Assembly: GCF_002161805.1 (NCBI RefSeq)
Contig: NZ_NFIP01000001.1
Coordinates: 186,001-250,000 of the forward strand
Origin: Collinsella sp. An307
GTDB lineage: Bacteria; Actinomycetota; Coriobacteriia; Coriobacteriales; Coriobacteriaceae
Length of the DNA: 64,000 bases
Direction: 5' to 3'
Every line of letters begins with the position of its first letter. Within the stretch, counting starts at the first letter, position 1. Below the pieces are notes generated by a model. The model made no database searches. It was not told the DNA's origin and was given only the letters and a program-made list of their open reading frames with translations. Positions 32,729 through 59,110 of the stretch are shown here, piece after piece. The position numbers and the translations under genes were made by a program.

Positions 32729-33475
32729 CTAGAGCGCCGCGCCCGCGGCGATAAGCAGGATGCAAAGGACGCCGACTACGACGTCACGTGCGCGGAAGGG
32801 GTAGCGTCGGTAGCTGCTCTCACGCGTGCGCAGGTAAAAGCCGCGCTGCTCTGCCGCAAGCGCCGTCGCATCGGTCTTGCCCACCGAGGTCACGAGCAGA
32901 GGCACGCAAACCGGCAGCATGAGCAGGAGCTTTTTCACCGGGTTCTTGGTGTCAAACTCCACGCCCCGCGCCGTCTGGGCCTCCATGATGGCGTTCATCT
33001 CCTGCGTGAAGACGGGGACAAAGCGCAGCGCCGTGGTGAAGGTGAACGCGTACTTGTAGGGGATGTGCAGCTTTTCCACGCAGGCGTTGGCAAGATCGGT
33101 CGTCTTGGTGACGGTGAGCACAAGCACGAGCGGCAGCGCCACGCCGAGCAGGCGCAGGCACGCCTTGGTGCCGGAAACGAGGCCGTCGGTCGTGATAAAG
33201 AGCGCGATCACCTCGCCGCGGCGCACGAACGCGAGCTGCAGCACGAGCATGAGCACGGCAACGGGCACGAGAACCTTGAGAAGCGACAGCAGGCGTGACC
33301 CGCTGCCCGCGTAGATGCCGAGGACAAGCGTGAGGAGGAGAAGGCCGATAAGGGCGGCGTAGCCGTCGGCGAGTACCGTGGCGATGATGATGGCGGCGGC
33401 CAGCGCGAGCTTGGTCACGGGATTCAGGCGATGCAAGACGGTATTGCCCGGTACGTAGTCGATGACGTTCAGCAT
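32729..33475 (-). CDS. ECF transporter transmembrane component (EcfT)
   Basis: T component coupling the ATPase to the substrate-binding S protein. Five to six hydrophobic segments (LALAAAIIIATVLADGYAAL, LVPVAVLMLVLQLAF, LRLLGVALPLVLVLTVT, and a C-terminal VVVGVLCILLIAAG) surround the cytoplasmic coupling helices with AAEQRGFYLRTRE, containing the A-x-x-x-R-G motif that docks on the ATPase; a first, weaker EAQTARGVEFDT is the second copy. ATG 33475 was preferred over GTG 33484 because GGGAGG is at proper distance only for the ATG. It is the last gene of the S-AA'-T operon. Confidence 0.88.
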   Translation of the reverse strand: MLNVIDYVPGNTVLHRLNPVTKLALAAAIIIATVLADGYAALIGLLLLTLVLGIYAGSGSRLLSLLKVLVPVAVLMLVLQLAFVRRGEVIALFITTDGLVSGTKACLRLLGVALPLVLVLTVTKTTDLANACVEKLHIPYKYAFTFTTALRFVPVFTQEMNAIMEAQTARGVEFDTKNPVKKLLLMLPVCVPLLVTSVGKTDATALAAEQRGFYLRTRESSYRRYPFRARDVVVGVLCILLIAAGAAL

Positions 33476-33480
33476 GGCTC

Positions 33481-35334
33481 TCACGCCTCCCTGGCGTCGG
33501 TTGCGGCGTCTGCTTTGGTGGCGGAGGGCAGCGGTGCCTCGGCGGCGTTTGCCCCTCCACCTGCGAGTGCCTCGGTGGTGTCCACGATGCCCGCCACCTC
33601 GGAGATGCGGGCAAAGGCGGGAGAGACCTCGCGTGCGAGGCGCTGCGAGAGCTCAACAACCTGCGGCGGCTTCACGCGGGCGCGCGCCATGAGCGCGGCG
33701 TCGGCAAAGACCTCTGCCGTGGCGCCGCGGGCGAGGATGCAACCGTCTGCCATGACCACGAGGCGCTCGGCAAAGTCGGACACGACCTCCATGTCGTGGC
33801 AGACCATCACCACAGCAGACCCGTGCTCGGCCATCTCGCGGACCGTCTCCATAACGGTCATGCACTCGCGGTAGTCGAGGCCGCTCGTGGGTTCGTCGAG
33901 GACGACGACCGCGGGTTCGCAAACTACGACCGAGGCGAGTGCGACCATCTGGCGTTGCCCGCGCGAGAGCGAGAAGGGCGCCTCGTCTGCCGGAAGGCCA
34001 AAGCGCTCGATCACGCGGCGGGCGCGTGCCTCGGCATCTGTTTGCGAGACGCCGGCGAGCTCGAGGCCAAAGGCAACCTCTTCGAGCACGGTGTTCTTGC
34101 AGAGCTGGTGGTCGGGGTTCTGGAAGAGCGTCGCCACGTGGCGAGCGATGCGCGACACGGGAACCTCACGCGTGTCGAGGCCGGCGATCACGACCGAGCC
34201 GGAGCTCGGCTTGAGAAGACCGTTTAAAAGCTTAGTGGCCGTGGTCTTGCCGGCGCCGTTTTGGCCGACGATTCCCACGAGCTCGCCGGGATAGACGGTA
34301 AGATCGAGGTTGTTCACCGACGCGCCGCCGCCGGGGTAGGCAAAGGTGACGCCCGAGAAGCGCACGATGGGCTCGGCGCCCTTGGCGTGCGGCCGCGGCG
34401 CGGGCGCGTGGGGCGAGGCCGTGGCTCGACCGAGCGCCCTCGCTTCAACGGGCGCCGGTGCGCCCGCACGCGCTTTAACGATGTCGGCGATAAGCGCGGC
34501 GGCTTCGTCCACGTTGAGGCAGGGGTCGCCCGCCGGACAGAGGCCGCGGTGGGCGAGGCTGTTTGAGATGCGAGCCGTGCGCGGGCTGTCGACGCCGATG
34601 GCGCGGAGCTCGGAGCTGTGCGCAAAGACCTCGTGCGGCGTGCCGTCGAGCGCTACGCGCCCCTCGTTCATGACCACGAGCCGATCGCAGTACTCCGAGA
34701 GGAGCGCCACCTTCTGCTCGATCACTATGACGGTGATGCCCTCGTCGCGGTTGAGGTCGCGCAGCACGTCAAAGACCATGCGGGAGCTCACCGGGTCGAG
34801 CGCCGCGGTGGGTTCGTCAAGTACGAGCACGCGCGGTGCGAGCGCCAGAATCGCGGCGATGGCGACCTTTTGCTTCTGCCCGCCCGAGAGGGTGGCGATT
34901 TCGCGGTCGCGGAGGTCGGCGATGCCCACGGCGTCGAGCGCGGCCTCAATGAACTTCTCGATATGCCTATGGTCGACGCCAAAGTTCTCGAGACCAAAGA
35001 TGAGTTCGTCCTCCACCACCGAGGCGACCATCTGCGCGTCGATGTCCTGGTTGACCGACCCCACAACGCGCGAGATGTCGGTAAGTGTGACCTCGCAGGT
35101 GTCTGAGCCGTCGACAATGGTCTCGCCAAAGAGCTGGCCGGTGAAGTGGTGGGGGATGGCGCCCGAGAGGACGGAGGCGAGGGTCGACTTGCCCGCCCCC
35201 GACGGGCCGATCACGCCCACAAAGGCACCCGGCTCGATGGCAAGCGTGATGTCGTCGAGGGCGCGCGCGTCCTCGTGACCATAGGAGAACGAGACGTGCC
35301 TCATCTCGATTATCGGATCGGCGGTCGGTTGCAT
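33481..35334 (-). CDS. ECF transporter ATPase, fused A and A' domains
   Basis: One 617-residue polypeptide with two ABC ATPase halves, as in YkoD-type proteins. First half: Walker A GVIGPSGAGKSTLAS, signature TLSGGQKQKVAIA, Walker B VLVLDEPTAALDP. A Pro/Ala/Arg linker (about 280-325) leads to the second half: GIVGQNGAGKTTATKLLNG, SLSRGQRQMVALAS, VVVLDEPTSGLDY, with the switch His in MVCHDMEVVS. Both sites look competent. The C-terminal 60 residues are Ala/Thr-rich and without family character. It energises uptake through the S component encoded upstream and the T component downstream. Confidence 0.93.
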   Translation of the reverse strand: MQPTADPIIEMRHVSFSYGHEDARALDDITLAIEPGAFVGVIGPSGAGKSTLASVLSGAIPHHFTGQLFGETIVDGSDTCEVTLTDISRVVGSVNQDIDAQMVASVVEDELIFGLENFGVDHRHIEKFIEAALDAVGIADLRDREIATLSGGQKQKVAIAAILALAPRVLVLDEPTAALDPVSSRMVFDVLRDLNRDEGITVIVIEQKVALLSEYCDRLVVMNEGRVALDGTPHEVFAHSSELRAIGVDSPRTARISNSLAHRGLCPAGDPCLNVDEAAALIADIVKARAGAPAPVEARALGRATASPHAPAPRPHAKGAEPIVRFSGVTFAYPGGGASVNNLDLTVYPGELVGIVGQNGAGKTTATKLLNGLLKPSSGSVVIAGLDTREVPVSRIARHVATLFQNPDHQLCKNTVLEEVAFGLELAGVSQTDAEARARRVIERFGLPADEAPFSLSRGQRQMVALASVVVCEPAVVVLDEPTSGLDYRECMTVMETVREMAEHGSAVVMVCHDMEVVSDFAERLVVMADGCILARGATAEVFADAALMARARVKPPQVVELSQRLAREVSPAFARISEVAGIVDTTEALAGGGANAAEAPLPSATKADAATDAREA

Positions 35335-35373: not shown

Positions 35374-35949
35374 CTAGTCGGCAAGCTTGAGGGCGTGCTT
35401 GATGGGCAGGTAGAGCGCGCCTACGAGGATGGCATTGAACACCGCGGTGAGGGCGACGACGGGGAGCATCAGCGAGACGAGGCTCGTGTCGAACTGCATC
35501 ATGGCCATCTTGATTACCATAAAGATAGCGCCGGAGAGGAACGTCGTCACGAACGTGCCCACCGTGGGGATGACGGCCTTGGCGCCCGTCTTCATGCCGG
35601 CGTTGACGATAAGGGCCATCACGACGGCGGCGATGCCCTCGGCCACAAAGTCGATGCCGGGGCTTGTGGTGGTGATCTGGATTACCGCGGCGGAGACGAG
35701 GCCGATGATGAGGGCCTGCACGGCGTTGGGCCGCACGATCAAGATGGTGAGGCAGAAGGCGGAGATGATGAACTCGGGTGCGATGGTGCCCGCCGAGATG
35801 GTCGAGATGGCCTTGCCGACGGTGAAGTTCAAGATGAAGCCGGCGGCGAGGAGCACGGCGAGCAGGACGAGGGCCTTTACGTCGAGCTTTCCGCGGTCGA
35901 CGGAGGTGACGGTGCGGGCCTGAGCGGAGGTGTTGGTGTTCTGCGTCAT
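35374..35949 (-). CDS. ECF transporter S component, TrpP-like, probably for tryptophan
   Basis: Membrane substrate-binding protein of 191 residues with six hydrophobic segments (LVLLAVLLAAGFILNFTVG, FIISAFCLTILIVR, ALIIGLVSAAVIQITTTSPG, and others). ISTISAGTIAPEFIISAF and ITTTSPGIDF recall TrpP-type proteins (S-x-x-x-x-x-PEF and T-T-x-x-P-G), though similarity by eye is modest. The decisive clue is upstream: a leader peptide with three Trp codons and a terminator/antiterminator (36088-36215). ATG 35949 is preceded by AAAGG. The cargo could be tryptophan, indole or another Trp-derived compound; the energising partners follow directly. Confidence 0.8.
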   Translation of the reverse strand: MTQNTNTSAQARTVTSVDRGKLDVKALVLLAVLLAAGFILNFTVGKAISTISAGTIAPEFIISAFCLTILIVRPNAVQALIIGLVSAAVIQITTTSPGIDFVAEGIAAVVMALIVNAGMKTGAKAVIPTVGTFVTTFLSGAIFMVIKMAMMQFDTSLVSLMLPVVALTAVFNAILVGALYLPIKHALKLAD

Positions 35950-35973: not shown

Positions 35974-36031
35974 TTTGGGGACGGGGTCGAAATGTGCAAC
36001 TGCCTGGTTGGGGACGGGGTCGAAACGATCG
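35974..36031. repeat. Dispersed TTTGGGGACGGGGTC repeat, copies B1 and B2 in tandem
   Basis: TTTGGGGACGGGGTCGAAAT at 35974-35993 followed by GTGCA, and TTGGGGACGGGGTCGAAACG at 36008-36027, in the same direction 34 bases apart. They lie in the leader of the ECF operon, between the attenuator and the start codon of the S component. Confidence 0.75.
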
Positions 36032-36087: not shown

Positions 36088-36118
36088 AAAAAGGCCCCCG
36101 GTCAACCCGGGGGCCTTT
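36088..36118 (-). terminator. Attenuator terminator of the ECF operon
   Basis: On the minus strand AAAGGCCCCCGG, loop GTTGA, then CCGGGGGCCTTTTT: a perfect 12-bp stem followed by five T. The loop plus the first bases of the 3' arm read GTTGACCGG, the exact complement of CCGGTCAAC at the end of the leader peptide gene, so the two structures exclude each other. Confidence 0.9.
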
Positions 36119-36146
36119 ACGTGCACTATCTATAGGCGCGAAGGGC

Positions 36147-36215
36147 TCACCGTTGACCGGCCGAGTTCACATCACGCCACCACCAGTTGTTGAGAGCAAG
36201 GTTGGTGTTTCTCAT
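36147..36215 (-). CDS. Trp-codon leader peptide of the ECF transporter operon
   Basis: A 22-residue frame with AAAGGAG nine bases before the ATG. It reads MRNTNLALNN, then Trp11-Trp12-Trp13, then RDVNSAGQR and TGA. Three consecutive TGG codons in so short a peptide are the signature of a trp-type attenuator. The last codons (GCC GGT CAA CGG) contain the antiterminator strand CCGGTCAAC. When charged tRNA-Trp is plentiful the ribosome runs to the stop and covers that strand, so the terminator at 36088-36118 forms. When it stalls on Trp codons the strand is free to pair with GTTGACCGG and transcription continues into the transporter genes. Sequence facts are direct; mechanism is by analogy with known attenuators. 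Confidence 0.88.
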   Translation of the reverse strand: MRNTNLALNNWWWRDVNSAGQR

Positions 36216-36279
36216 GACCGGTGGCTCCTTTCGGTTAATCGCGGTGAGCCTTAAAGCCCACCCATCTGGCGTTGCGAGC

Positions 36280-36288
36280 ACTATAGCA
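36280..36288 (-). promoter_or_regulatory. Extended -10 promoter of the Trp leader/ECF operon
   Basis: The minus strand reads TGCTATAGT: a TATAGT -10 box with a TG one base before it (extended -10). It lies about 65 bases before the leader ATG. No good -35 hexamer is seen at 16-18 bases, which is tolerated by extended -10 promoters. Confidence 0.6.
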
Positions 36289-59052: not shown

Positions 59053-59110
59053 TTTGGGGACGGGGTCGTTTCGTGCGTCGCGCGGCGCACGAAACGACCC
59101 CGTCCCCAAA
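59053..59110. repeat. Dispersed TTTGGGGACGGGGTC repeat, copy C, perfect palindrome
   Basis: Twenty-five bases beginning TTTGGGGACGGGGTCGTTTC (59053-59077) are repeated inverted without a mismatch at 59086-59110, with eight bases between. It lies between the RlmD and polyphosphate kinase genes, ten bases beyond the stop of the latter, and could act as a terminator as well. Confidence 0.85.

Follow-up and report, generated by a model that had tools for sequence, protein, structure and literature searches.

A putative tryptophan-codon attenuator precedes an ECF transporter operon in Coriobacteriales and alternates with T-box-like leaders

Results

An ECF transporter operon follows a leader with tryptophan codons

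The window, a 64-kb stretch of DNA from a Coriobacteriaceae genome (99.5% complete, 2.2 Mb), carries three consecutive minus-strand genes that an earlier note had assigned to the S, fused A-A′, and T components of an ECF transporter. This assignment is borne out by profile matches and by the predicted fold of the S component, which is encoded adjacent to the ATPases and the T component:

35374–35949, minus strand: ECF S component, TrpP-related, 191 aa (Pfam TrpP below cut-off; ECF S fold, Z 10–16)
33481–35334, minus strand: fused ECF ATPases A-A′, 617 aa (TIGR04520/TIGR04521, two ABC domains)
32729–33484, minus strand: ECF T component, 251 aa (Pfam CbiQ, PF02361)

The structure model of the S protein (mean pLDDT 78) has as its top 19 solved matches ECF S components, including related CbiM-type chains. 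Its sole Pfam match is the tryptophan transporter family TrpP (PF17099), which it resembles distantly over its full length with 17.9 bits versus a curated cut-off of 27.2. Because this full-length match lies under the cut-off, we call the protein TrpP-related rather than TrpP; the TrpP-like character proposed earlier thus stands as a distant resemblance but not as family membership. The same family was matched at E ≤ 0.1 by the S proteins of 33 of 34 relatives, and no other Pfam family was matched by more than one relative. PF17099 should not be confused with the Corynebacterium glutamicum protein TrpP (Cg3357), which was compared with SdpI and excluded as a Trp transporter (PMC11995493). In some genomes, two tandem S genes precede one AA′T set (for example L156, L158, and G053:C1:653543-654901), where the second copy is ~42–51% identical to the query. 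Judged from the sequences, these tandem genes suggest a second substrate.

Upstream of the S gene, every leader element described in the earlier note is present base for base on the minus strand. These elements, together with additional helices that emerged from the comparison of relatives, are as follows:

36280–36288, minus strand: extended −10, TGCTATAGT (sequence)
36225–36231, minus strand: Shine–Dalgarno sequence AAAGGAG of the leader ORF (sequence; in-frame start in relatives)
36147–36215, minus strand: leader peptide ORF, 22 codons, MRNTNLALNNWWWRDVNSAGQR followed by the stop (sequence and conservation)
36177–36185, minus strand: three regulatory UGG codons, W11–W13 (WWW in relatives)
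36172–36178, minus strand: P1 5′ arm GGCGUGA, overlapping W13-R14-D15 (pairs with 36141–36135; covaries)
36152–36160, minus strand: antiterminator strand CCGGUCAAC, leader codons 19–22 (GGUC invariant in 42 aligned sequences)
36141–36146, minus strand: second antiterminator strand GCCCUU, at the stop codon, conserved GUGAGYC block (binds AAGGC in the 5′ arm of the terminator)
36135–36141, minus strand: P1 3′ arm UCGCGCC (P1 covariation)
36098–36106, minus strand: antiterminator partner GUUGACCGG, in the loop and 3′ arm of the terminator (complement of 36160–36152; 99% of cells paired, a conserved helix)
36090–36118, minus strand: intrinsic terminator AAAGGCCCCCGG-GTTGA-CCGGGGGCCTTT, 12 bp, loop GUUGA (covariation; conserved block in aligned relatives)

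The position of the extended −10 makes a transcription start near 36273 plausible. The U tract of the terminator consists of five T residues ending at 36088, three of which pair inside the 12-bp stem. A generic promoter and terminator scanner flagged neither the leader promoter nor the terminator at this locus, because this tool relies on a −35 box and requires the T tract to lie beyond the stem. As had been noted, the 9-bp strand CCGGTCAAC (36160–36152) is the exact complement of GTTGACCGG (36106–36098). This is the sole leader within the window that combines a Shine–Dalgarno sequence, a WWW-encoding ORF, and a terminator. No Rfam family scored above its cut-off at the leader, the best being Thr_leader (23.9 bits, cut-off 55) and Phe_leader (19.4 bits, cut-off 55), and a T-box (RF00230) match was likewise absent. 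Between the terminator and the S gene, a direct repeat, TTTCGACCCCGTCCCCAA, is present in two copies on the minus strand (window 35975–36025), and a shorter core of this repeat recurs near 59066–59097.

The geometry of the leader is conserved among relatives

Scanning a single genome from each species provided 75 S-gene loci. The search of relatives proposed in the earlier note placed the same leader before the S gene in all 73 loci with adequate upstream DNA. Three consecutive Trp codons are present in every relative but one, which has two (L043). The terminator stem was located by a hairpin finder in most loci; where this tool gave no stem or a poor one, the conserved terminator block can be seen both in the trimmed and in the aligned sequences. 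Among the 66 distinct loci, a frame-neutral test found the start that follows the Shine–Dalgarno sequence to share its reading frame with the Trp run in every case, the first Trp codon lies 13 codons from the stop in 65, and the last Gly codon is always GGT. The distance from the start to the Trp run varies from 9 to 16 codons. Within the peptide, an N-WWW-R core is conserved, and the remainder is unconserved except for its RNA-constrained end. The fixed span from Trp to stop, the uniform GGT codon, and the drifting start therefore indicate that selection acts on the geometry and on the RNA around the stop codon. To judge from these alignments, the sequence of the first half of the peptide is not under selection.

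Two features are less general. The extended −10 reported for the window is indeed there, but it occurs at only 42 of 74 loci, mostly those of Coriobacteriaceae, and most Atopobiaceae loci are without the motif. Loss of the Trp codons with retention of the terminator, which had been named as an outcome that would speak against attenuation if seen in close relatives, is not seen there. It is confined to two near-identical Atopobiaceae loci (L183, L186) at which the whole Trp leader is gone and the S gene follows the terminator behind an apparent rpmA.

A covariance model of the leader matched 166 of 398 genomes of the class at E ≤ 0.01. In a sample of 296 genomes from the phylum, matches at E ≤ 1e-6 were found only in Coriobacteriales. 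In the genome of the window, the match at this locus is strong and those everywhere else are weak. Low-scoring additional matches, in this genome and at L113, L161, and L167, were rejected on finding no Trp leader there, and the weakest matches (for example L161 and L167) are probably due to chance. On the strength of sequence comparison, the leader before the ECF operon is not a chance feature.

Three competing helices can form

Three competing helices were recognized in a set of 42 non-redundant aligned sequences: P1, the terminator, and the antiterminator. P1, which the earlier note did not report, joins GGCGYGA, a strand that covers the third Trp codon and the two codons after it, to UCGCGCC, which lies shortly beyond the stop codon. 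It is a helix of the 1:2 type, one of whose arms lies among the regulatory codons. The antiterminator consists of two helices: in one, CGGUC binds GACCG, which belongs to the loop and 3′ arm of the terminator, and in the other, GAGYC binds the 5′ arm of the terminator. The 9-bp strand recognized previously is therefore only part of a larger element, whose second helix had been overlooked.

Taken together, P1 and the terminator have standard base pairs in 90% of cells, and ten pairs are changed on both sides. None of 500 shuffles reached the values of these helices for pairing, double changes, or covariation score. When pairing partners were swapped between sequences, the native combination was better than the permuted ones for P1 (z −4.8) and the terminator (z −10.2). 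The outer half of the antiterminator was weakly better than its permutations (z −2.7), and the inner half was not better in this test of the 42 sequences. The strands of the antiterminator are 90% paired and nearly invariant, so that covariation, when sought as proof of this helix, was not found. Such invariance is compatible with constraint by several pairings. One fold suggested a further regulatory helix, which would join the flank of the Shine–Dalgarno sequence to the Trp codons; it was dropped because in the relatives it scarcely outperforms shuffled flanks.

In folding models, ribosome position determines the preferred fold of the growing transcript

Equilibrium folding with blocks representing the ribosome proved uninformative as a test of switching, since the terminator is the outcome for the full-length leader wherever the ribosome is placed. 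This result implies that any switch must be kinetic, which is also how textbook attenuation operates. Length-stepped folding was used instead, wherein ever longer transcripts of the 42 sequences were folded with a modeled ribosome position. When the ribosome sits on the Trp codons, 33 of 42 sequences favor the antiterminator as long as none of the terminator 3′ arm has been transcribed; the count is 42 of 42 once 3 nt of this arm are present and 41 of 42 with 5 nt. The terminator wins under these conditions only after almost all of its 3′ arm has appeared. Placing the ribosome at the stop codon leaves no sequence among the 42 in which the antiterminator is favored. In the absence of a ribosome, P1 is formed in 31 of 42 sequences at lengths that precede the 3′ arm. 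A shuffled antiterminator strand reaches equal pairing in 4% of cases.

Genes under the same leader class point to tryptophan

The gene for IGPS (TrpC) is absent from the genome of the window and from 66 of 67 genomes of the family, in a search whose positive control was found in 14 of 14 genomes; this absence suggests Trp auxotrophy, the host bacteria being apparently unable to make Trp. The one family genome with a trpC gene carries it at G037:C1:15326-16069.

Leaders encoding WWW also precede sodium symporters of the NSS family (L149–L154, L148). The best PDB match of these symporters is 4us3, a structure of MhsT solved with Trp. At L148, the symporter gene adjoins S-AA′-T, and each has its own WWW leader. 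In addition, TrpB2-like genes follow a WWW leader that ends in LSD before the stop or in a related tail (L160, L162–L166), and at L160 a single leader, a TrpB2-like gene, S, and A occupy one stretch. A search of the genus of the window, run without a positive control, found no TrpB2-like gene.

A T-box-like leader with a UGG specifier is found before 14 related operons

Fourteen related S-A-A′-T operons (L169–L182), from families of the order other than Coriobacteriaceae and Atopobiaceae, carry T-box-like leaders in the place of the leader peptide. The 12 loci searched score 56–78 bits with the Rfam T-box model (E 1.7e-9 to 3e-15), where the cut-off is 93. The specifier triplet, assigned by position, is UGG in 14 of 14. 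A second T-box, with an apparent CUC (Leu) specifier and 109 bits, is located on the other strand at L182:4434-4681 (+).

A maximum-likelihood S tree requires at least three changes between leader peptide and T-box, which are forced by well-supported branches, although the tree gives neither root nor direction and the count depends on the loci sampled. Three leader-bearing S genes are placed inside the T-box group.

Discussion

The leader in the window has an ORF with a run of Trp codons, a terminator before the first gene, and a 1:2-type helix. Computed folding adds an antiterminator, exclusive of the terminator, that is exposed by stalling and covered when the ribosome is at the stop codon. 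The attenuator proposed in the earlier note is thereby strengthened by the occurrence of the leader at 73 of 73 loci, its fixed geometry, the covariation of P1 and the terminator, and the behavior of the fold under a stalled ribosome. We consider it very probable that this RNA is a classical ribosome-mediated attenuator, responsive to charged tRNA-Trp, that governs an ECF transporter importing Trp.

When Trp is sufficient, the ribosome would pass W11–W13 and reach the stop codon, where it would cover the antiterminator strands and allow the terminator to form before the S gene. When Trp is short, the ribosome would stall on the UGG run and cover the 5′ arm of P1. The freed GGUC...GUGAGYC segment could then pair with the 5′ arm, the loop, and the start of the 3′ arm of the terminator. 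With the antiterminator formed, RNA polymerase would read into S-AA′-T, leading to Trp import. If the leader is not translated, P1 would form, followed by the terminator. Switching in vivo, its direction, and the transported substrate are what we infer from these data.

The proposal that the operon serves Trp uptake likewise gains from the conservation, covariation, and fixed geometry of the leader, from the co-regulated Trp genes, and from the UGG T-box-like leaders on related operons. Tryptophan is the likely cargo of the importer. A less probable reading accepts a Trp-responsive attenuator but assigns to the transporter a related compound, such as indole, a Trp derivative, or a Trp precursor, and we regard this as unlikely. 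The S protein is only distantly TrpP-like, tandem S genes in some genomes may mean that the module serves more than one substrate, and indole salvage would suit cells with TrpB2-like genes under the same leader class. However, a cell that lacks TrpC requires either indole or Trp itself, the leader class also precedes symporters that best match 4us3, and no Pfam family other than TrpP is shared by relatives of the S protein.

We also weighed an arrest like that of TnaC, wherein the nascent peptide, rather than stalling at particular codons, would sense free Trp and the operon would be induced when Trp is plentiful. A Trp-rich peptide with a conserved N-WWW-R core at a fixed distance from the stop might suit such a sensor, yet the peptide is unconserved apart from NWWWR and the RNA-constrained end. 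Consecutive UGG codons, the overlap of P1 with them, and an intrinsic terminator fit starvation control instead, and related operons use T-box-like leaders of a tRNA-sensing kind with UGG. Arrest of this type therefore appears very improbable. Least credible of all is a constitutive or vestigial leader, in which the terminator of an upstream gene and an untranslated ORF would lie together and no switching would occur: the stable terminator does dominate at equilibrium, and the two Atopobiaceae loci have a terminator alone, but in-frame starts at 66 of 66 loci, fixed geometry, invariant synonymous sites, and a covarying P1 argue that selection maintains a functional leader.

Most discussion of classical Trp attenuation concerns biosynthetic operons. 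Among actinobacteria, it has been described for the trp operons of Corynebacterium and Streptomyces, and also for trpS (Seliverstov et al. 2005, PMC1262725). The element found here is known in kind and is closest to those attenuators, which share a leader peptide in which UGG occurs two or three times in succession, a GC-rich terminator with a U tract, and a competing antiterminator (PMC1262725). They target Trp biosynthesis or TrpRS, whereas the present leader precedes an ECF uptake operon in cells without TrpC. T-boxes (RF00230) are alike in sensing charged tRNA and in choosing between terminator and antiterminator, and the T-box-like leaders of the related operons have the UGG specifier, but a T-box binds tRNA directly and has no leader peptide, whereas sensing in the window would fall to a translating ribosome. 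In the open-access literature, we found no report of the element among papers on ECF or TrpP with attenuation, on T-boxes with Trp transporters, or on Collinsella or Atopobium leaders. As far as this literature shows, the novelty lies in the ECF target, in the auxotrophic background, and in the repeated interchange with T-box-like leaders that carry UGG.

Taken further, these observations make it fairly probable that Coriobacteriales use leader-peptide attenuation to govern a Trp-acquisition regulon, comprising the ECF importer, the MhsT-like symporter, and TrpB2 salvage, instead of Trp synthesis, and that the importer operon has repeatedly swapped its attenuator with a T-box of the same specificity, with at least three changes in the S tree. 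An uncharacterized ECF transporter of gut bacteria is tied to tryptophan through its regulation, its co-regulated genes, and the specifiers of the T-box-like leaders. The related operons form a natural set in which two RNA sensors of the same signal interchange, so that the cost and gain of each are directly comparable.
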